Shown here piece after piece: positions 322-9,519 of a DNA stretch of 64,000 nucleotides. The notes beneath the pieces were generated by a model. The model made no database searches. It had not been told where the DNA came from and worked only from the letters and a program-made list of their open reading frames with translations. The stretch spans positions 62,001-126,000 of the forward strand of contig JBCCCR010000003.1 of the NCBI GenBank assembly GCA_039033415.1, written 5' to 3'. The position numbers were made by a program, and so were the translations under genes. The DNA is from Pseudomonadota bacterium. GTDB taxonomy: Bacteria; Pseudomonadota; Gammaproteobacteria; Xanthomonadales; SZUA-38. Positions within the stretch are counted from its first letter, which is position 1; every line of letters begins with the position of its first letter.

Positions 322-1635
322 ATGGCGGGGCTTAACGAGACCCATGACCCCGCGTTAACCAGTTGGGTTGAATCAGCGAACGAACCCCGTTCGAACTTTC
401 CGATTCAGAATCTGCCTTTTGGGGTCTTTCGTCGCCGCGACCTGCAGGAATCCTTTAGAGGCGGTGTCGCGATTGGCGATCAGGTCGTTGATCTCAGGGC
501 AGCGGCGGAGGCTGGCCTGTTCGACGCCCAGGACCCGAAGGCGGTTCGCACGGTCACTCAGTCATCGTTGAATGGGTTCATGGCCCTCGGGCAACCAACC
601 TGGACCGCGGTGCGCCGTCACCTTTCGCGAGAACTGCGCGCCGGAGCAGCGCGGGAAGTCCCCTGGCGGGCCTGCCTCGTACCGCAGGCAGAAATCGATC
701 ACGCGTTGCCTTGCACGATTGGGGATTACACAGATTTTTTTGCCTCGATCCACCACGCAACCAAAGCGGGTAGCGTCTACCGTCCTGACAATCCCCTGCC
801 CCCTAATTACTCGTGGATCCCAATTTGTTATCACGGCCGGTCATCCAGCATCGGTTTATCCGGCGAGACGGTGCATCGGCCCCTGGGGCAGCTTCGGCGC
901 GATCGCGAGTCACCGCCGGTCCTCGCGCCCACCGAACGACTCGACCACGAGCTGGAGCTGGGCTTCTATGTGGGCACGGGCAACGCCCGAGGCGAACCGG
1001 TCACCATCGAGCAGGCGGAAGACTGTGTGTTTGGCGTGGGTTTGCTGAATGACTGGTCAGCGCGGGACATCCAGGCCTGGGAAGCGCGCCCGCTGGGACC
1101 CTTCCTGGGAAAGAACTTTGCAACCACCGTTTCGCCCTGGATCGTCACGCTGGAGGCGCTGGCGCCGTATCGCGCGCCCTTTTCCCGCGCGCCCGAGGAT
1201 CCCCAGCCTCTCGGGTATCTGACCAGTGATGACAATACGTCGCACGGCGCCGTCGATATGCATCTGGAAGTGCTGCTGCAGACGTCTTCCATGCGCCGCG
1301 AAGGCCAGCCAGCAGAGCGTATTGGCCACTCAAACTTTGCCGATTGCTACTGGACCATGGCCCAGATGGTGACACACCACACCGTCAGTGGCTGCAACCT
1401 GCGGCCGGGCGATCTGCTGGGAAGCGGCACCCAGTCGGGACCCGAGCTGGACCAGAGTGGCTGTCTCCTGGAGTTGACCAGCGGGGGGCGAAATCCGCTC
1501 ACCCTGAGCAATGGAGAAACCCGCGGCTTTCTCGACGATGGCGATACCGTTGTGCTTCGAGGCTGGTGTGAACGGGATGGTGCTCCGCGCATCGGGCTTG
1601 GCGAGGTGCGTAACACGGTCGTTAAAACACCCTGA
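322..1635 (+). CDS. fahA: Fumarylacetoacetase
   Basis: Hydrolyses fumarylacetoacetate to fumarate and acetoacetate, the last step of tyrosine/homogentisate breakdown, in the cytoplasm. The 437-residue product has the family's full length. Known active-site and metal residues of the animal enzyme can be placed with a near-constant offset: D138 (D-Y-T-D-F), H145 (S-I-H-H-A-T), E210 and E212 (D-H-E-L-E-L), D244/R248/Q251 (N-D-W-S-A-R-D-I-Q) and K264 (L-G-K-N-F). It follows the TetR fragment by 5 nt, and its TGA overlaps the ATG of the next gene by one base. No homogentisate dioxygenase or isomerase is visible nearby, so it either completes a pathway encoded elsewhere or acts on a related acylpyruvate. 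Confidence 0.95.
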   Translation: MAGLNETHDPALTSWVESANEPRSNFPIQNLPFGVFRRRDLQESFRGGVAIGDQVVDLRAAAEAGLFDAQDPKAVRTVTQSSLNGFMALGQPTWTAVRRHLSRELRAGAAREVPWRACLVPQAEIDHALPCTIGDYTDFFASIHHATKAGSVYRPDNPLPPNYSWIPICYHGRSSSIGLSGETVHRPLGQLRRDRESPPVLAPTERLDHELELGFYVGTGNARGEPVTIEQAEDCVFGVGLLNDWSARDIQAWEARPLGPFLGKNFATTVSPWIVTLEALAPYRAPFSRAPEDPQPLGYLTSDDNTSHGAVDMHLEVLLQTSSMRREGQPAERIGHSNFADCYWTMAQMVTHHTVSGCNLRPGDLLGSGTQSGPELDQSGCLLELTSGGRNPLTLSNGETRGFLDDGDTVVLRGWCERDGAPRIGLGEVRNTVVKTP

Positions 1636-2709: not shown

Positions 2710-3888
2710 CTAGTGCGTCTGCGTCTCGTATTCAGGTTGCCAGCCCGGCAGCAGATTGAAGCGTCGATCCGGCGCAACGCCGTCATATAACAACCCGGCA
2801 TGATTGCGCCGGGCGAATGTTCGCATGCTCTCGACGAGCGCCGCAAAATCTGCATCGACAGACGACTCCCGCGCCGCTACCACGGCCGTCGCTTCGCGGA
2901 GTCGCTCGAGAATTGCCGGCGGCAAAGACCCGTGAATAGTAGCGCCGGCGGCGGCAAATTGCGCCGCGACGTCGGCCCCGGCGGCAAGATCAGTGGACAG
3001 TGACCGCGTTAGCTGCGCCAGCGCGGCCGTCCGGATGGCGTGCTGTTCGTGCGAGTCCAGGCTGTCGAAGAAGGTTTTATTGACGATCAGCCAGTTGCTG
3101 AGCATCAGCTGCTGCCAGCTCGACAGGTAAAGGTGCCGGAAACCGCACTCGACGATGTTTTGGCCTTTTTCGTGGCTGAAGCGCTCCACAAACAGCGTCG
3201 GGTAGACCGACAGCGTGCCCAGTTCAGCCCCTTGAATCCGGCCCTCACACAGATCATCGACCGGCACGACACCCGGGGGGCTGCTCACCAGCTTGATGTT
3301 GGGAAACGCTTCCTTCATCACCTTCGCGCCCAGCATATTGATGCGATAGGTGATACCACTTTGATCAAAGGCGTCAGGGTCGTCGGGAACCGGTTCGGTG
3401 AAAAAGCCAGGAGGTTCGCTGCTGGTGACCACCAGCGGAAGGAGCAACGTGTTGCCATGGGCACTGCGGCGATCGTAAATCTCCTGAACCAGTTCCCGTC
3501 CACCGGCCCCCAGATACCACGCGAGGAACTCGTGGGCCTTAAATCCGAACGGCATGCCGGATACCAGCAGCGGCCCGATCGATAGCGGCTCACCGCTGAC
3601 CGCAAAGGCCGCCGGCGGGGCAACCGCCAGGTCCAGGTCGCCAGCGTCGACCCGATCGAAGATCTCAGACACAGAAACAGCCGCGGCAGCGGGTGTGAGA
3701 ATGGTTAGGCGGAGAGAACCGGCGGTCAGCGTGGCAACATCATCCGCCAAGGTTTCCGGCGCCTGACCGAAGGCGCCATCCGGCGGCATGACGGCCACAA
3801 CTTCCACCTCCTGCGGGGCATTGATATTGCAGCCAACCAGAAACAGGGCGCAAAGAACAAGACCTGCGCAGGCGAGGATCAATCGCAC
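2710..3888 (-). CDS. TRAP-type (DctP-like) solute-binding lipoprotein
   Basis: A 392-residue exported lipoprotein: a hydrophobic signal followed by the lipobox L-V-G-C, with the modified cysteine at about residue 20. The rest resembles the periplasmic binding subunit of tripartite ATP-independent transporters: an alternating hinge layout, a middle W-Q-Q-L-M-L-S-N-W stretch typical of the ligand cleft, and a long C-terminal helix. Such proteins bind organic acids, including aromatic acids. No membrane subunits (DctQ/DctM) lie in the window, so it either works with a transporter elsewhere or acts as a binding protein only. It is the last gene of a minus-strand operon, 13 nt after the molybdoenzyme small subunit, which suggests it delivers the enzyme's substrate or a product. 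Confidence 0.75.
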   Translation of the reverse strand: MRLILACAGLVLCALFLVGCNINAPQEVEVVAVMPPDGAFGQAPETLADDVATLTAGSLRLTILTPAAAAVSVSEIFDRVDAGDLDLAVAPPAAFAVSGEPLSIGPLLVSGMPFGFKAHEFLAWYLGAGGRELVQEIYDRRSAHGNTLLLPLVVTSSEPPGFFTEPVPDDPDAFDQSGITYRINMLGAKVMKEAFPNIKLVSSPPGVVPVDDLCEGRIQGAELGTLSVYPTLFVERFSHEKGQNIVECGFRHLYLSSWQQLMLSNWLIVNKTFFDSLDSHEQHAIRTAALAQLTRSLSTDLAAGADVAAQFAAAGATIHGSLPPAILERLREATAVVAARESSVDADFAALVESMRTFARRNHAGLLYDGVAPDRRFNLLPGWQPEYETQTH

Positions 3889-3901: not shown

Positions 3902-4747
3902 TCATCGTTTTTGGAGGGGGATTACGCCGAGGTAAACGCTGTCCGTGATCTCAGCGGGAATCGTGATCGACTGATAGTCCGGATGTTCGATCCGCACCTC
4001 GCAGGCGCCAAGTCCCGGTTCCAGACGATCGATCTTGAATTCGCCAAACACACTCGTCTGGGTCTGCTGCGCATCGGAACCATTTAGGACCAGCGTCGCC
4101 GTGGCCCCCTCAAGGCAGTCTTCCGTGCCCTCTATGGATGCCACCACGGTGCCACTTAGGAAGCAGGTGTTGTAGCGATAGAGATTCCGGTAGTAAACCC
4201 GCGGCCGTGTATCCAGCTCCGGGTTCAGCGTTTCCAGGCCTTCTTCACTCACCCGGCGCTGCATCTCCTCATCGGAAATTTTGACCGCCTCGATGCCGCC
4301 GGTAGCACAAGCCGAGACACAACGCGGCTTGTCCCAGCCCTGATCAAGCAGATGCGCATCAAAAACCCAGATCTGCGGCAGCTGGAGTTCCTCATTCCAG
4401 ACCACCGCATTGTGGGGGCACGCGTCCACAATGTCTTTTCGACCCACCGCCTTTTCAGGATCAATAATCATGATGCCGTCGTCGCGCTTTCTCACCGCCT
4501 CACCGCCCACCTCGAGGCAGGGCGCGTTGTCACAGTGATTGCACATGCGCACGACATTGACGGCGTCGACCATGGGCGTCTGGCCCCGCACCTTGCGCTC
4601 CAGCGTCACAATATCCGAACTCTCGAGCGCCACGGGCGCGCTGTAACCCGGGTGGTTGTTCCCAACGTACTCATCTTTCGCCGAAAGCACCGCGTTGATG
4701 AAGTCGACCCCCTTCTCAACGTCGATGATGAGGTTCCACTTCTTCAT
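3902..4747 (-). CDS. Transhydroxylase-like small subunit with one predicted [4Fe-4S] cluster
   Basis: A 281-residue partner of the molybdoenzyme encoded just upstream; its ATG overlaps that gene's stop by 4 nt. Layout matches the small subunit of pyrogallol-phloroglucinol transhydroxylase (about 274 residues, three [4Fe-4S] clusters): ferredoxin-like region first, then a C-terminal beta-barrel/Cna-B-like domain (F-G-E-F-K-I-D motif). Odd: the first cysteine motif is gone (after D-V-E-K the positions read G-V-D-F-I-N-A-V-L-S-A), and the later C-x-x-C before A-H-L-L-D is W-V-F-D. What remains is C-N-H-C-D-N-A-P-C plus D-A-C-P, enough for one cluster, and two leftover cysteines (P-R-C, S-A-C). 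The comparison with the known enzyme is from memory. Confidence 0.85.
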   Translation of the reverse strand: MKKWNLIIDVEKGVDFINAVLSAKDEYVGNNHPGYSAPVALESSDIVTLERKVRGQTPMVDAVNVVRMCNHCDNAPCLEVGGEAVRKRDDGIMIIDPEKAVGRKDIVDACPHNAVVWNEELQLPQIWVFDAHLLDQGWDKPRCVSACATGGIEAVKISDEEMQRRVSEEGLETLNPELDTRPRVYYRNLYRYNTCFLSGTVVASIEGTEDCLEGATATLVLNGSDAQQTQTSVFGEFKIDRLEPGLGACEVRIEHPDYQSITIPAEITDSVYLGVIPLQKR

Positions 4748-7725
4748 GCCGCCCTCAGCTTCTTGAGTTGATCAGCATGGGCGTATTTTTCCACTTCAAC
4801 GAGCGTGGAGTTGGGACTCATGGAATGGGTACCGAGTGCCTGGGGCCGGTCCGGCGTCAGGATATTCAGACTGCCGCCGACCTCGATCTCTTCGCCCTCA
4901 ACGGTCAGCACCTGGTAGTTTGCGCTCGACTCGTAGCTCTTCACGACGCCGGATTTGACCAGGAAAGAGATGTCCGCCGCACAGATCACCGCCCCACGAT
5001 CGTTATAGACCTTAACCAGATCATCCTGCTTGATGCCCCGGGCCTTCGCGTCTTCCGGACTCAAGCGTGCGATCCAATAGTACTGCCCGTCGATGCAGGT
5101 ACGATGATCGCGAATCTGGTTGGTAAACGGTGAACCGTCAGAAAAGGTATGGAAGCTATAGCGGCTATGCGTCGCAATCATCTGCATCGGGAACCGCCCC
5201 ACGAGGTCTTTGGTGCGCGGTCCCTCCCAGGAAGGGATGTAGCGATTCAGCGCCGGGCGCTCTGGATGTTTGTCCTCGTTGCGCTTGAGGATGGTCGGCA
5301 CAAACTCAATTTTGCCGCTGGGCGTGTGCACGCCGTAGCCAAAGTCCTCAGCCCATTGCGACGGTAGCGGGTGCGGTTCAGGCACATCTTTTTTCCGGCC
5401 TTCGGCAAACCAGCGCATCGAAACCGGTGGTCTCAGGCTTTCTTCGTTTTCCCCCGGGACGACGAAGTAGCCTTTCTTGACAAACTCCTTCCAGGAAATG
5501 TGGGCCGGCAGGTCGGAGCTATCAAAAACTCGTTTCGCCCAGTCGAGCTCGCTGCAACCCTCAGTGAATATCGCTCCCATCCCGAGGCGCTCGAGTATCT
5601 CGGTAAAGATCTGGTAATCGGATTTGGACTCACCCAGCGGCTCGATACATTTGTGCTGCATCGCAATGACACGGTGATTGAGCACCTCGGTGTTGTGGAG
5701 ACCATAGCCACCGGCGCTATTCCATTCGCCAATATCCCAGCGTTCAAGATTGGAACAGGCCGGCAGAATCACGTCTGCAAACTGAGCCTCTCCTTCCATG
5801 AAGATGGTCTGGTTCACGACAAACTCGATGCTGTCGTGGCGATAGGACCTGGCGAAGCGGCCGGAGTTGGTAGTGGTGCTGAAGGCCGAAGATCCGTAGC
5901 GGTAGATCATATGAATCGGCGAAAAACCCGGCAGCGGGTAATGAAACGGCACAAACTGGCCTTCCTGAGACATACCGTCCCACAGATACCCTTCCGCTTC
6001 ACCGTTGATGATGGCCTCAGGAATTTTCTGCTTGGGCACCTGCTGGGAACATGGGTTGACGGTCAGGATGTGGGGCATTCGCTGGTAGTTGCTGACCGCG
6101 TTGCCCGTGAAGTTCAGATCGCCGGAGATCCCACCGTCGGCATAGCCCGGAAAGTAGAACTGCAGGTCCACCGGCGCACCGCCGATCAGGCCGCCCATGT
6201 TGATGCCGGGCTTTCCCCAACCCTGCATGGCCATCATCAGGATCATGCAGCGCGCCCACTGGGTGCCGGTGGCACCGCGACAGGCGCCGCCGAAGCCGGT
6301 TCCACTCATGCCGCAGGACAGGTAGGTCTTCTTCTTCGCCCAGCTGCGCGCCAGAGCCCGCACGTCCCGTGCCGCAACGCCGGTTTCTGATTCTTGCCAC
6401 TCCGGCGTCTTGGGAACGCCATCGTCGGTGCCAAGCACGTAGTCTCGCCACTCATCAAAACCCGTGGTTCGTTCGGCAACGTAGTCCTTGTCGTATAGAT
6501 CCTCCGTCATCCAGACGTACATGATGGCAATGGCAAACGCCGGGTCCGTTGTGGGCTTGATCGGTATCCATTTTCCGCCCAGCAGCTGCGCCGTCGGGTT
6601 GTAGTGCGGGTCGATGTGGACAAAGTCGAAACCTAGCTCTTTGGCCCAAAGGCGCCGGGGCGTCGACTCAAACCCAGCATAAGAGGCGTTAGTGCTTTCC
6701 GGATCACTGGACCAGAACACGATCTGCTCGGCCTCTTGAAGGCAATCTTCGAGCGTGCCGTAACTTGATGGCGTGCCGACACGCTGGGTAAAACCCACAT
6801 GATGCTGCGCGCCCCAGTACCACCCCTCCCAACTGTCGGGATTCATGGCCATGCGGGTATAGCCAATCAGGTTGCCAAAGCGCATCATGGCGCTGAGGTA
6901 GTAGCCCACATTGCCCCATTGGTGATGCGAGCAGTGCTGGAGAAGAATGGCGCCTGGCCCGTACTTCTTTTTCTGTCGCTTGATTTCGCCCGCTACGATG
7001 TCGAGGGCTTCATCCCAGCTGATCCGCTCGTATCCTGAAATTCCCCGGTTCTGGGGATTTCGCTCACCCTCGGGATCGAAGTCGACTCGCTTCATGGGGT
7101 ACAACAGGCGCCCGTCTGAGTAAACCGTGCTCTTCATCGAGCACCCATGCGGAGCAATTGTGGCCTGGCGCTTTGGTGAGAACTCTTTGCCCCGGGCTCG
7201 GATCTTCCAGCTCGGCGCGTCGTCCTCGGTAAATTCGATTGGCGTCATGCGTACGATCTTGCCGTCGCGCACGTGCACATGCAGCGGGCCACCGTTGGTT
7301 ACGGTGGTATACCGCATGCACCCGTCGGGCATCTCCTCGCCAAACTTGAACCCTTCGTAGTTGACCCGCTGCAGCAGCTTCAGCATCCAGTTGACGATCG
7401 GATCAGACCCTTCAACGGTCATCAGAAAGTTTTTGGCGGCGTGCACTTTAAACGCCATGTCCGCATCGGGGCGCAGCCCCTGCGCTGCGATATCCAGATT
7501 CTTAAAGACAATGGCCGCATCCGGCGACGGGTGAATGCCTGCGGCCGACTTCACCAGGCCGTCCTTAAAGAAGTAATGCCTGCCGATGCTGTTGTTTTTT
7601 AGTTTGATCTGCAGAATGCAGTCGTGCCGACGAGCTTCCTCCCGAAAGGCGGGATACTTTTTGCTGGTCCGATTGATGATCGGCCCCAGCATGAAAAGAA
7701 TGACACGCAGGACGATGGCTTTCAT
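4744..7725 (-). CDS. Pyrogallol-phloroglucinol transhydroxylase-like molybdopterin enzyme, large subunit, with N-terminal SCP2-like domain
   Basis: A 993-residue protein of the DMSO-reductase superfamily. From about residue 140 it follows the transhydroxylase large subunit closely. S-H-H-Q-W-G-N-V-G-Y (265-274) and N-P-D-S-W-E-G-W (295-302) place His267, Asp297 and Ser298 at the spacing of His144, Asp174 and the molybdenum ligand Ser175 of the Pelobacter enzyme; the F-Y-F-P-G-Y loop near 523-528 holds the Tyr404 equivalent. There is no N-terminal iron-sulfur motif, as in that enzyme. The first ~120 residues are extra and look like an SCP2 sterol-carrier-type domain; they account for the length excess over 875 residues. 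No Tat or Sec signal is evident, so it is probably cytoplasmic. The true substrate is unknown; a phenolic compound is the natural guess. Confidence 0.88.
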   Translation of the reverse strand: MKAIVLRVILFMLGPIINRTSKKYPAFREEARRHDCILQIKLKNNSIGRHYFFKDGLVKSAAGIHPSPDAAIVFKNLDIAAQGLRPDADMAFKVHAAKNFLMTVEGSDPIVNWMLKLLQRVNYEGFKFGEEMPDGCMRYTTVTNGGPLHVHVRDGKIVRMTPIEFTEDDAPSWKIRARGKEFSPKRQATIAPHGCSMKSTVYSDGRLLYPMKRVDFDPEGERNPQNRGISGYERISWDEALDIVAGEIKRQKKKYGPGAILLQHCSHHQWGNVGYYLSAMMRFGNLIGYTRMAMNPDSWEGWYWGAQHHVGFTQRVGTPSSYGTLEDCLQEAEQIVFWSSDPESTNASYAGFESTPRRLWAKELGFDFVHIDPHYNPTAQLLGGKWIPIKPTTDPAFAIAIMYVWMTEDLYDKDYVAERTTGFDEWRDYVLGTDDGVPKTPEWQESETGVAARDVRALARSWAKKKTYLSCGMSGTGFGGACRGATGTQWARCMILMMAMQGWGKPGINMGGLIGGAPVDLQFYFPGYADGGISGDLNFTGNAVSNYQRMPHILTVNPCSQQVPKQKIPEAIINGEAEGYLWDGMSQEGQFVPFHYPLPGFSPIHMIYRYGSSAFSTTTNSGRFARSYRHDSIEFVVNQTIFMEGEAQFADVILPACSNLERWDIGEWNSAGGYGLHNTEVLNHRVIAMQHKCIEPLGESKSDYQIFTEILERLGMGAIFTEGCSELDWAKRVFDSSDLPAHISWKEFVKKGYFVVPGENEESLRPPVSMRWFAEGRKKDVPEPHPLPSQWAEDFGYGVHTPSGKIEFVPTILKRNEDKHPERPALNRYIPSWEGPRTKDLVGRFPMQMIATHSRYSFHTFSDGSPFTNQIRDHRTCIDGQYYWIARLSPEDAKARGIKQDDLVKVYNDRGAVICAADISFLVKSGVVKSYESSANYQVLTVEGEEIEVGGSLNILTPDRPQALGTHSMSPNSTLVEVEKYAHADQLKKLRAA

Positions 7726-7735
7726 AAGCCCTGGC

Positions 7736-8395
7736 TCACAGGGTCTGGCAGGTTTCTTCGAACCCTAGGCGCGGCAGTCGTGGGTAGACCTTCCCCGGGT
7801 CGCCGTGACCCAACCCACAAATAAAGTTTGATCGGACCTGCGTTCCGGCAAAAAATTCTTTGTCCACTTCGGCATTGTTGAATCCCGACATAGGACCACA
7901 GTCCAGCCCCAGGGAGCGAGCGGCGAGCATAAAATAGGCGCCCTGGAGTGTGCCGTTTCGAAAGGCGGTGCTCGCCGCCAGTTCGGCATTGTTTTCGAAC
8001 ATGGGACGAACATCCCTGATCGGAAGCAGTTTGCCCATCTGCTCATAGAAGGCCAGGTCGTGGGCAACAATGGCAAGCACCGGCGCAGCCATGGATTTGT
8101 CCACATTTCCCTCCATGAGAAACGGTTTGATGCGCGCCTTGCTGTCATCAGATGATAAGAAAACGAAGCGGGCCGGACAGCAGTTCATGCTGGTGGGACC
8201 CATTTTCACCAGATCGTACAACGCCCGGAGCGTCGCCTCACTGACCGGCTCATCTTTCCAGCCGTTTTGACTGCGAGCCTCGCGGAAGAGAATGTCGAGG
8301 TGGTCATTGTCCAGGGGGCGATAGCGAGACTTAAGGTCTGCTGCTGCCTGCTGTGCCGCCTGCATGGCCTGCACCTGTTCAGGACTCATGTCCAT
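7736..8395 (-). CDS. Nitroreductase-family protein, RutE/HadB-like
   Basis: A 219-residue FMN-dependent nitroreductase-fold protein. The segment L-F-R-E-A-R-S-Q-N-G-W and then M-G-P-T-S-M-N-C-C-P-A-R-F is typical of the RutE/malonic-semialdehyde-reductase branch, in which P-T-S-x-N binds FMN phosphate. The closing G-L-G-H-G-D-P is also family-like. Members reduce short aldehydes or enones, or nitro compounds, with NAD(P)H. It is the first gene of the minus-strand operon, 10 nt before the molybdoenzyme, so a role in processing the ring-derived product is a reasonable inference. The first M-D-M gives two possible ATG starts six bases apart; I use the longer one. Confidence 0.82.
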   Translation of the reverse strand: MDMSPEQVQAMQAAQQAAADLKSRYRPLDNDHLDILFREARSQNGWKDEPVSEATLRALYDLVKMGPTSMNCCPARFVFLSSDDSKARIKPFLMEGNVDKSMAAPVLAIVAHDLAFYEQMGKLLPIRDVRPMFENNAELAASTAFRNGTLQGAYFMLAARSLGLDCGPMSGFNNAEVDKEFFAGTQVRSNFICGLGHGDPGKVYPRLPRLGFEETCQTL

Positions 8396-8559: not shown

Positions 8560-9519
8560 ATGACCTTTGCAGCACAACCCAAACGACAGTTGACGTCCGA
8601 AGAGGTCGAACGCTTCCGGGAGGACGGCGTCATTCTCCTTCGCAACGCGCTGGAACCAAACTGGCTGGAACTCGTCGAGGCTGGGATCGAAAGGGGTCGC
8701 AGCGAGCTCTCCATGATCGGCAAATTTATGTCTCGTGGCACCCAGGGCTATGAGATGGATGTGTTTCTCTGGAAACGCATCGATGAGCTTCGCGACGCCA
8801 TTTATTACGGACCCTTCGCGCAGTGGGCGCAAGAACTTATGGGCAGCGCAGAAGTCCGCTTTTTCTATGACCAGATGTTTGTCAAAGAAGCGGGCACGGA
8901 CGCGCCAACCCCCTGGCACCAGGACCTTTCTTTCTGGCCCATTCGCGGCGAGCAAATCTGTTCCATGTGGATGCCGGTTGATCCCGTCAGCCGCGAGTCT
9001 TCAGGTCTCATGTACGTCAAAGGCTCCCATCGCTGGCCGCAGCGTTTCAAAGCCATTTCGCCGGATTATTTCGAACCGATTATCGACGAACAAATGGATG
9101 ACATCCCGGACATCAACGCCGACCCGGACGCCTACGACCTGGTCGATTGGGATATGGAACCGGGGGACATCCTGATGTTTCATCCGCTTACACTCCATGG
9201 CTCTTACGGCAACTCGCACCGAGAGCGACGTCGCCGCGCGATAGCGTTTCGCTGGGTTGGTGACGACGTGATTTACGCGCCTTCACCCACGCGCATGGGC
9301 ATTAACTTTAAGCACGAATCGGTCGAAGGCGGTCCGCTCAGAGGCGCTGCCTTTCCGCGCATTATCCCCAGCCACATTCCGAGCGAACGGGCGCAGCGAG
9401 TTAAGCCCGAACCGCCGGCAAAAAAAGAGGTGTTGCGGGGAATCGCCAAATCGTTGCTCGCCAAGCTGAAGCCGCAGGCGGCGGTGGACAAAAGCAACCT
9501 AAAGCAAACCTGGAGCTGA
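8560..9519 (+). CDS. Phytanoyl-CoA dioxygenase (PhyH) family protein
   Basis: A 319-residue Fe(II)/2-oxoglutarate oxygenase of the PhyH family, probably cytoplasmic. The iron triad is readable: H120 and D122 in P-W-H-Q-D, and the distal H213 in L-T-L-H-G-S; a basic cluster (R-E-R-R-R-R) just after it probably includes the 2-oxoglutarate-binding arginine. The substrate is unknown; relatives hydroxylate acyl-CoAs, ectoine or secondary metabolites. It is transcribed away from the nitroreductase gene across a 164-nt AT-rich gap that must hold both promoters, and it leads an operon with cupin, SDR, cupin and lectin-like genes, with only 3 nt to the next gene. Confidence 0.88.
   Translation: MTFAAQPKRQLTSEEVERFREDGVILLRNALEPNWLELVEAGIERGRSELSMIGKFMSRGTQGYEMDVFLWKRIDELRDAIYYGPFAQWAQELMGSAEVRFFYDQMFVKEAGTDAPTPWHQDLSFWPIRGEQICSMWMPVDPVSRESSGLMYVKGSHRWPQRFKAISPDYFEPIIDEQMDDIPDINADPDAYDLVDWDMEPGDILMFHPLTLHGSYGNSHRERRRRAIAFRWVGDDVIYAPSPTRMGINFKHESVEGGPLRGAAFPRIIPSHIPSERAQRVKPEPPAKKEVLRGIAKSLLAKLKPQAAVDKSNLKQTWS

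Follow-up and report, generated by a model that had tools for sequence, protein, structure and literature searches.

What would a molybdenum enzyme of the transhydroxylase type do in a bacterium with the genes of aerobic life, when transhydroxylases are, to our knowledge, known from strict anaerobes? The question is raised by a locus on contig JBCCCR010000003.1 (C3) of a 6.4 Mb genome in 62 contigs, within the 64,000-nucleotide stretch C3:62001-126000 (hereafter the window, whose numbering is used unless a contig prefix is given). Two open reading frames (ORFs) overlapping by 4 bases lie on its minus strand, where an initial annotation had placed them: an intact large (molybdopterin) subunit of 993 residues (4744..7725; C3:66747-69725), identified by profile and Protein Data Bank (PDB) matches as an SCP2-transhydroxylase fusion, and a small ferredoxin-like subunit of 281 residues (3902..4747). 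Signs of aerobic life, already suspected in that annotation, are two COX1-family genes in the genome and genes for dioxygenases and FAD monooxygenases on the contig of the locus; searched with the large subunit, the genome returned that gene itself as the sole match (E <= 0.001). The answer favoured here, with modest confidence, is a transhydroxylase of lipophilic polyphenols, supplied by its SCP2 domain ahead of aerobic ring cleavage, whose iron-sulfur (Fe-S) subunit is eroding.

Molybdenum core and N-terminal domain of the large subunit

Residues 133-993 (4747..7329, minus strand) form a molybdenum core resembling that of pyrogallol transhydroxylase (PGT). The best PDB match by phmmer is the large subunit of Pelobacter PGT (4v4c_A; 921.6 bits, E = 4.9e-276, residues 137-981), with 51% identity across 840 residues, the next protein being dimethyl sulfoxide (DMSO) reductase at 219.1 bits. 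A full-length structure model built from the window protein and 33 relatives (predicted local distance difference test, pLDDT, 82.4, falling under 50 in stretches including 268-273 and 297-300 that adjoin the active site) aligns in VIA to 4v4c_A with Z 43.0 over 841 residues at 2.4 Å, TorA coming second at 37.2. With PGT the best match in both sequence and fold, the Ser/His/Tyr/Asp set present and the Pfam family AhtL-like_1st (PF21423) matched at 89.6 bits (cut-off 27), the subunit falls in the RhL/PgtL group of the DMSO-reductase (MopB) superfamily. NCBIfam names were rejected for the large subunit, as all 22 matching models, headed by an S/N-oxide reductase, score far under their cut-offs.

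The PGT-type molybdenum site proposed in the initial annotation is borne out residue by residue. In an alignment of 96 sequences, His267 and Tyr275 correspond to PGT His144 and Tyr152; Asp297 and Ser298 (6832..6837, minus strand) to Asp174 and the molybdenum ligand Ser175; and Tyr528, the final Tyr of the FYFPGY motif, to Tyr404. The equivalents of His144, Ser175, Trp176 and Tyr404 are invariant (96/96), with partial conservation of those of Tyr152 (94/96), Tyr560 (90/96) and Asp174 (89/96, window included). Catalytic roles of the His144/Asp174/Ser175/Tyr404-type residues are taken here, as an assumption, from the PGT literature. The residue after the Tyr152 equivalent, reported as Tyr where PGT has Arg, is indeed Tyr276 against Arg153, and the change marks the whole fused clade: the position holds Arg in five (PGT among them) and Lys in one of the 6 sequences on the unfused side, and Tyr in 84, Trp in 4 and His in 2 of the other 90. 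The large subunit is 90% identical to its homologue at locus L008 (a Pseudohongiella metagenome-assembled genome, MAG), with a non-synonymous divergence (dN) of 0.060 and a synonymous divergence (dS) saturated at 3.4, a pattern indicative of strong purifying selection.

Two departures from this site were seen elsewhere. Ile occupies the Asp174 position in L078, L083, L084, L086 and L091, and Glu in the unfused L135 and L137; the Asp174 acid, thought catalytic, may be dispensable in the former subgroup. The 36% identical relative L167 keeps the Ser and 12 small-subunit cysteines but has lost the His144 and Tyr404 equivalents, and perhaps catalyses another reaction.

Residues 1-128 (7342..7725, minus strand) are ascribed to an SCP2-fold domain on the basis of predicted structure, Foldseek and VIA. 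An extension of about 120 residues had been expected; it is present, its length being about 132. The extension of the window protein has no Pfam match at E 0.1 nor at E 1. When 51 homologous extensions (the window's own and those of 50 among 78 homologues) were scanned member by member, nine matched SCP2 (PF02036) at E up to 1 (best E 0.0027), the sole family matched by more than one extension, every other family being matched by one. Structure prediction from the 51-row alignment reached a pLDDT of 89.9, with elements in the order α-α-β-β-β-β-α-α-β-α, and all 36 Foldseek matches (E up to 0.001) fall among proteins of the sterol-carrier type and enzymes of the alkylsulfatase type, YjcS being one of the latter, the top match being UbiJ-SCP2 (E 2.0e-6). 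VIA-align superposed the predicted domain on sterol carrier protein 8af3 with Z 12.3 over 112 residues at 2.7 Å, and placed the alkylsulfatase matches in the C-terminal part of those enzymes. On this modelling, residues 1-128 are predicted to fold as a lipid-binding-type SCP2 domain. The initial annotation would have given up the SCP2 assignment for want of a match, and plain sequence search of the window protein does return none, yet the assignment stands because of the family matches and the predicted fold. The first helix is hydrophobic (residues 4-18 average 2.17 on the Kyte-Doolittle scale; family median 1.2), a property that would fit a carrier in contact with the membrane.

The alkylsulfatases SdsA1, Pisa1 and YjcS likewise bear an SCP2-fold domain on an amphiphile enzyme (VIA Z 9.5-11.1), although there the domain is C-terminal and the catalytic domain unrelated.

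Spread of the fusion and cysteine loss in the small subunit

A contig scan found at least 595 relatives, of which the best 80, with one more locus (L007), were kept as 81 loci; these are nearest relatives and lean to Burkholderiales. In 78 of the 81 the match starts no later than residue 10 of the window protein, and the extension is therefore present in them; among the other three, L065 and L067 begin at contig edges and L058 is frame-broken in the N-terminus. The homologue survey called for in the initial annotation thus reveals a large family and not a curiosity of one genome. Named hosts are Alpha-, Beta- and Gammaproteobacteria and one record titled Deltaproteobacteria. Randomly drawn genomes seldom carry the family: at E up to 1e-80 a match occurs in 2 of 369 from the class, the window's own included, and PF21423 occurs in 2 of 398 genomes of the phylum, above its cut-off in the window's own alone. 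Of three other genomes from the window's taxonomic family, two returned no match and the third nothing but distant molybdopterin proteins (best 1.3e-13); in the family of the Rhodocyclales MAG carrying L058, 17 of 345 genomes match at E up to 1e-60, most with the fusion. Relatives are also carried by eight PLSDB plasmid records, and the patchy distribution together with these records suggests horizontal spread of the fused gene. Three annotated plasmid records give the genes no more specific names than ‘molybdopterin-dependent oxidoreductase’ and ‘4Fe-4S dicluster domain-containing protein’.

A tree built from 51 core sequences by maximum likelihood (quick search, SH-aLRT support without bootstrap; long branches L134, L007 and L138) separates 45 rows of the fused clade from 6 rows on the PGT side (one of them, L141, cut by its contig end) with SH-aLRT 100. 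The fused L077, which has all 12 small-subunit cysteines, is the first branch of the fused clade, and the window forms a clade with L008 and L067 (support 99). Fused and unfused paralogues coexist in genomes G751 and G752. The large-subunit frame is broken or split in L058 and in L159/L166, from assembly error or decay.

The small subunit matches that of PGT over residues 1-275 of 281 (E 2.5e-57), with a C-terminal CarboxypepD_reg-like stretch below the Pfam cut-off. PGT has small-subunit cysteines at positions 13, 16, 19, 23, 68, 71, 76, 109, 126, 129, 145 and 149, and additionally Cys209; the twelve are taken here to hold three [4Fe-4S] clusters, with cysteines presumed to be assigned to clusters by the usual motif pairing of ferredoxin-like subunits. 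The window subunit has 9 cysteines, six in the ferredoxin part and therefore too few for two sets of four. Its only complete set (Cys69, 72, 77 and 110; 4418..4543, minus strand) would hold a single [4Fe-4S] cluster. Motif I is lost, with Gly13, Phe16, Ala19 and Ala23 (4679..4711, minus strand) where PGT has four Cys, as is motif IV, with Trp127 and Asp130 (4358..4369, minus strand) in place of Cys126 and Cys129.

Cysteine loss extends across the family, as counted in 92 readable small subunits of 93 (PGT excluded, PGT numbering). C126 and C129 are both lost in 85, mostly as Trp and Asp, and both kept in 7, namely five on the unfused side and the fused L077 and L085. C145, an expected ligand of the same cluster, is lost in 17 of the 85 and in 0 of the 7 keepers; C23 is still present in 7 of the 85; and every one of the 92 retains C149 and the C68/71/76/109 set. 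Such a pattern would be expected if one cluster (C126, C129, C145, C23) had been lost and two retained. Losses of C13, C16 and C19 go furthest in the window, L008 and L067, where all three are gone; one of the three is lost in L070 and L079 (C16 to Ser). In a second sample, which may overlap the first, 18 of 23 loci were readable: all 15 of the fused clade had lost C126 and C129, and all 3 unfused loci keep the 12. In all, the eight unfused-side relatives that were read keep the 12 cysteines.

The Fe-S part of the small subunit is 81.8% identical between the window and L008, against 92.5% for the large subunit, the lowest value among 183 pairs in the 90-94% large-subunit bin (mean 88.0, sd 2.5; pairs not independent), and only about the fifth lowest of 246 pairs in the wider 88-95% range.

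In sum of likeness, the window enzyme shares with Pelobacter acidigallici PGT (4v4c) its fold, the molybdenum-ligand Ser, the His144/Asp174/Tyr152/Tyr404 positions and an adjacent ferredoxin-like small subunit, and differs from it in the added SCP2 domain, in Arg153 to Tyr and Cys557 to Ala, in an aerobic-type host, and in having one of the three cysteine sets; PGT in the strict sense has cysteines for all three [4Fe-4S] clusters, which the window enzyme lacks, and turns pyrogallol into phloroglucinol with 1,2,3,5-tetrahydroxybenzene as co-substrate.

Candidate reaction and competing explanations

Neighbours of the 81 loci and the window were clustered, yielding three recurrent partners: an FAA (fumarylacetoacetate)-hydrolase-family protein (41 loci), an acyl-CoA synthetase of the AMP-forming kind (34) and a two-domain VOC protein akin to extradiol dioxygenases (32). 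By the 38 taxonomic groups of named loci these occur in 20, 13 and 15, respectively, and they lie on the strand of the molybdenum-enzyme gene in 36/42, 28/34 and 33/33 cases. Because the greedy ORF picker sometimes kept an antisense ORF, counts were repeated by tblastn (E 1e-30 or better, 81 loci), giving 33 for the FAA hydrolase (down from 41 under this stricter threshold), 32 for the synthetase and 34 for the dioxygenase, with all three in 24 loci and at least one in 43 (raw counts). The synthetase matches NF005714 at 938 bits (cut-off 632), and the two-domain VOC protein matches HpaD at E 6.3e-18, below its cut-off, and resembles PDB 3b59 and a BphC-type enzyme. Burkholderia stagnalis plas2 carries on one strand the VOC protein, FAA hydrolase, acyl-CoA synthetase, OmpW, molybdenum large subunit and 4Fe-4S protein, with a TetR gene facing away from this run. 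Also near by among the 38 groups are DUF1302 and DUF1329 (6 each) and MMPL and the outer-membrane OmpW and FadL types (4 each), company known from the breakdown of hydrophobic compounds.

A two-subunit molybdenum enzyme of the pyrogallol transhydroxylase/resorcinol hydroxylase family with an N-terminal SCP2 domain could use this pocket to take a lipophilic polyphenol from the membrane and offer it to the molybdenum site. There Ser298, His267, Asp297 and Tyr528 would carry out an O2-independent, overall redox-neutral hydroxyl transfer. Delivery of a lipid-like phenol, and thus a substrate other than that of the Pelobacter enzyme, had been raised in the initial annotation and remains plausible. 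PGT acts on pyrogallol, and the rings of the family are 1,3-dihydroxy and trihydroxy rings. Since the SCP2 domain suggests a lipid-type derivative of such a ring, the substrate would most likely be a 5-alkylresorcinol or an alkyl- or acyl-trihydroxybenzene, with 5-alkylresorcinol as first guess and alkyl- or acylphloroglucinols second. Adjacent hydroxyls, which an extradiol dioxygenase needs for ring opening, would arise if a hydroxyl were moved onto or about a resorcinol or phloroglucinol ring; the fumarylacetoacetate-type hydrolase and acyl-CoA synthetase would then complete the breakdown.

The overall PGT reaction needs no external electrons. If the window reaction is likewise redox-neutral, as the cysteine loss would suggest, the enzyme needs no path to lead electrons out, and its Fe-S subunit may have shed clusters stepwise, leaving two of the three in most members and one in the window, while being retained as a structural partner. 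Precedent for an SCP2 domain serving hydroxylation of a lipid phenol, counted here as support, comes from the SCP2 proteins UbiJ and UbiT of ubiquinone synthesis, UbiT working with the O2-independent hydroxylases UbiU-UbiV (PMC6747719). They are separate proteins as a rule (the same source describes a UbiT-UbiU fusion in two Zymomonas genomes), and their hydroxylases are non-molybdenum enzymes of biosynthesis, not breakdown. An extension to the whole group can be put forward only tentatively: a large, unnamed clade of aerobic proteobacteria would open O2-dependent breakdown of phenolic lipids by O2-independent molybdenum hydroxyl transfer with SCP2 hand-over, the redox-neutral chemistry making the Fe-S relay dispensable and leaving it to be dismantled cluster by cluster.

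Several observations weigh against a redox-neutral transhydroxylase ahead of ring cleavage. The fused L077 and L085 keep all 12 cysteines, so the fusion by itself needs no cluster loss, and the nested position of L085 in the tree implies parallel losses or a regain. Among subunits without C126 and C129, C145 persists in 68/85 as C23 does in the seven noted above, and cluster loss also fits an enzyme passing electrons by another way. The SCP2 domain of the window escapes single-sequence hidden Markov model search. None of the three partners is found in 38 of the 81 loci at E 1e-30; the window's homologues of them lie outside the molybdenum operon, 17-38 kb away, and are 35-46% identical to those of relatives; and in the L008 genome some 600 kb separate the dioxygenase homologue from the molybdenum gene. 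FAD monooxygenases on the window's contig could do the hydroxylation instead.

Of the alternatives, a net hydroxylase of the resorcinol-hydroxylase type, taking oxygen from water and passing two electrons to an acceptor, with a lipophilic resorcinol held by the SCP2 domain, fares best, though it is judged unlikely. The cysteines for two clusters persist in most fused members, but the window type has one complete set and two cysteines of one cluster are gone in 85/92. The 3,5-dihydroxybenzoate hydroxylase of Thauera aromatica AR-1, likewise of an anaerobic pathway, stands beside RhL/RhS among the closest known systems. RhL of Azoarcus anaerobius acts on resorcinol, hydroxylating this 1,3-dihydroxy ring, and belongs with PgtL to the same Ser-ligand RhL/PgtL group (PMC10100899); the likeness of RhL/RhS to the window enzyme is drawn from that description, and RhL/RhS differ in serving anaerobic pathways. 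The unfused L160, L161 and L167 were considered as resorcinol hydroxylases and none is identifiable as such: the neighbours of L161 are phloroglucinol-cluster-like, those of L160 give no clue, and L167 has neither the His144 nor the Tyr404 equivalent.

Somewhat less credence still is given to a purely structural SCP2-fold domain, used for membrane docking or assembly by an enzyme that acts, like the one of Pelobacter, on a small soluble phenol. The core active-site residues are unchanged, divergence between window and L008 is greater in the N-terminal domain (dN 0.128) than in the core (0.050), and the conserved residues around HAAKNF in that domain might form an interface; yet Arg153 is replaced in all 90 fused-side sequences, OmpW, FadL, DUF1302/DUF1329 and RND genes lie near by in 4 to 6 of the 38 groups each, and SCP2 domains are otherwise lipid-binding.

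A reductive dehydroxylase, removing a hydroxyl at the molybdenum site as the gut catechol dehydroxylases do, is highly improbable: these belong to the same superfamily and act on polyphenols, but a published tree sets them apart from PGT and beside acetylene hydratase (PMC7028382), a much weaker match to the window (E 8.3e-15 against 4.9e-276 for PGT), and reduction needs electrons in, where the Fe-S path looks eroded. Equally hard to credit is a relic complex decaying in the window lineage with cysteine loss as plain decay, since the fast divergence of the small subunit (Fe-S part 81.8% identical to L008) stands against intact active-site residues, the low large-subunit dN at saturated dS and a remaining cysteine set untouched in 92/92.

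Beyond the initial annotation, the analysis adds the wide spread of the fusion, a small subunit without most of its cluster cysteines and the many relatives beside ring-cleavage genes. If the transhydroxylase reading holds, phenolic lipids would have a further route of breakdown, through a fused enzyme poor in clusters that many Proteobacteria carry along with aerobic ring-cleavage genes, and members with three, two and one cysteine sets could be compared as a natural test of the role of the Fe-S subunit in PGT. Among the matches listed in a search that left subscription journals mostly uncovered, no paper has both transhydroxylase and SCP2, so the fusion may already be published; and the literature on alkylresorcinol, alkylphenol and sorgoleone breakdown, by titles and abstract starts of the top matches, held no operon of the window's kind.

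Setting of the locus and further neighbourhoods

The genome has two extradiol homologues in all (E up to 0.001), at C3:28302-29291 and C3:48875-49807. The same contig carries homologues of the FAA hydrolase (C3:32383-33438; two weaker relatives are found elsewhere in the genome, on other contigs) and of the acyl-CoA synthetase (C3:36361-38274; L145:14361-16274), and two FAD monooxygenases lie within the same stretch of C3. The 40-kb stretch with the molybdenum gene and these homologues would, we infer, form one catabolic island.

The molybdenum operon is flanked directly upstream of the large subunit by a RutE-type nitroreductase (7736..8395, minus strand; NF003768 296.8 bits, cut-off 152), which also stands beside the L008 homologue (80%) and near by in L040 (49%), and directly downstream of the small subunit by a DctP-type solute-binding protein of the TRAP class (2710..3888, minus strand; profile match). 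A convergent plus-strand run (322-2699) ends with a fumarylacetoacetase (322..1635; TIGR01266 505.5 bits, cut-off 375.3), which may belong to the pathway of the molybdenum enzyme, and an epimerase-family SDR (short-chain dehydrogenase/reductase) gene; just beyond the window (L088 13775-19677) the run includes a sulfatase, a glutathione S-transferase (GST), an alpha/beta hydrolase, a TetR regulator and a thiolase. This run as a whole may serve a sulfated aromatic substrate.

Some relatives have other company. The unfused L161 (in L170, 18 kb around it in genome G1056) lies close to genes for a BKACE enzyme, a thiolase and an acetokinase-family protein, a set also seen in parts of the anaerobic phloroglucinol pathway (PMC10470551), and the L170 neighbourhood looks like part of an anaerobic phloroglucinol cluster. 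L137, L138 and L139 have, near the transhydroxylase-like gene, another molybdopterin homologue that is only distantly related (about 25% identity along part of its length). In the window itself, a phytanoyl-CoA dioxygenase-family gene (8560-9519) is divergent from the molybdenum operon.

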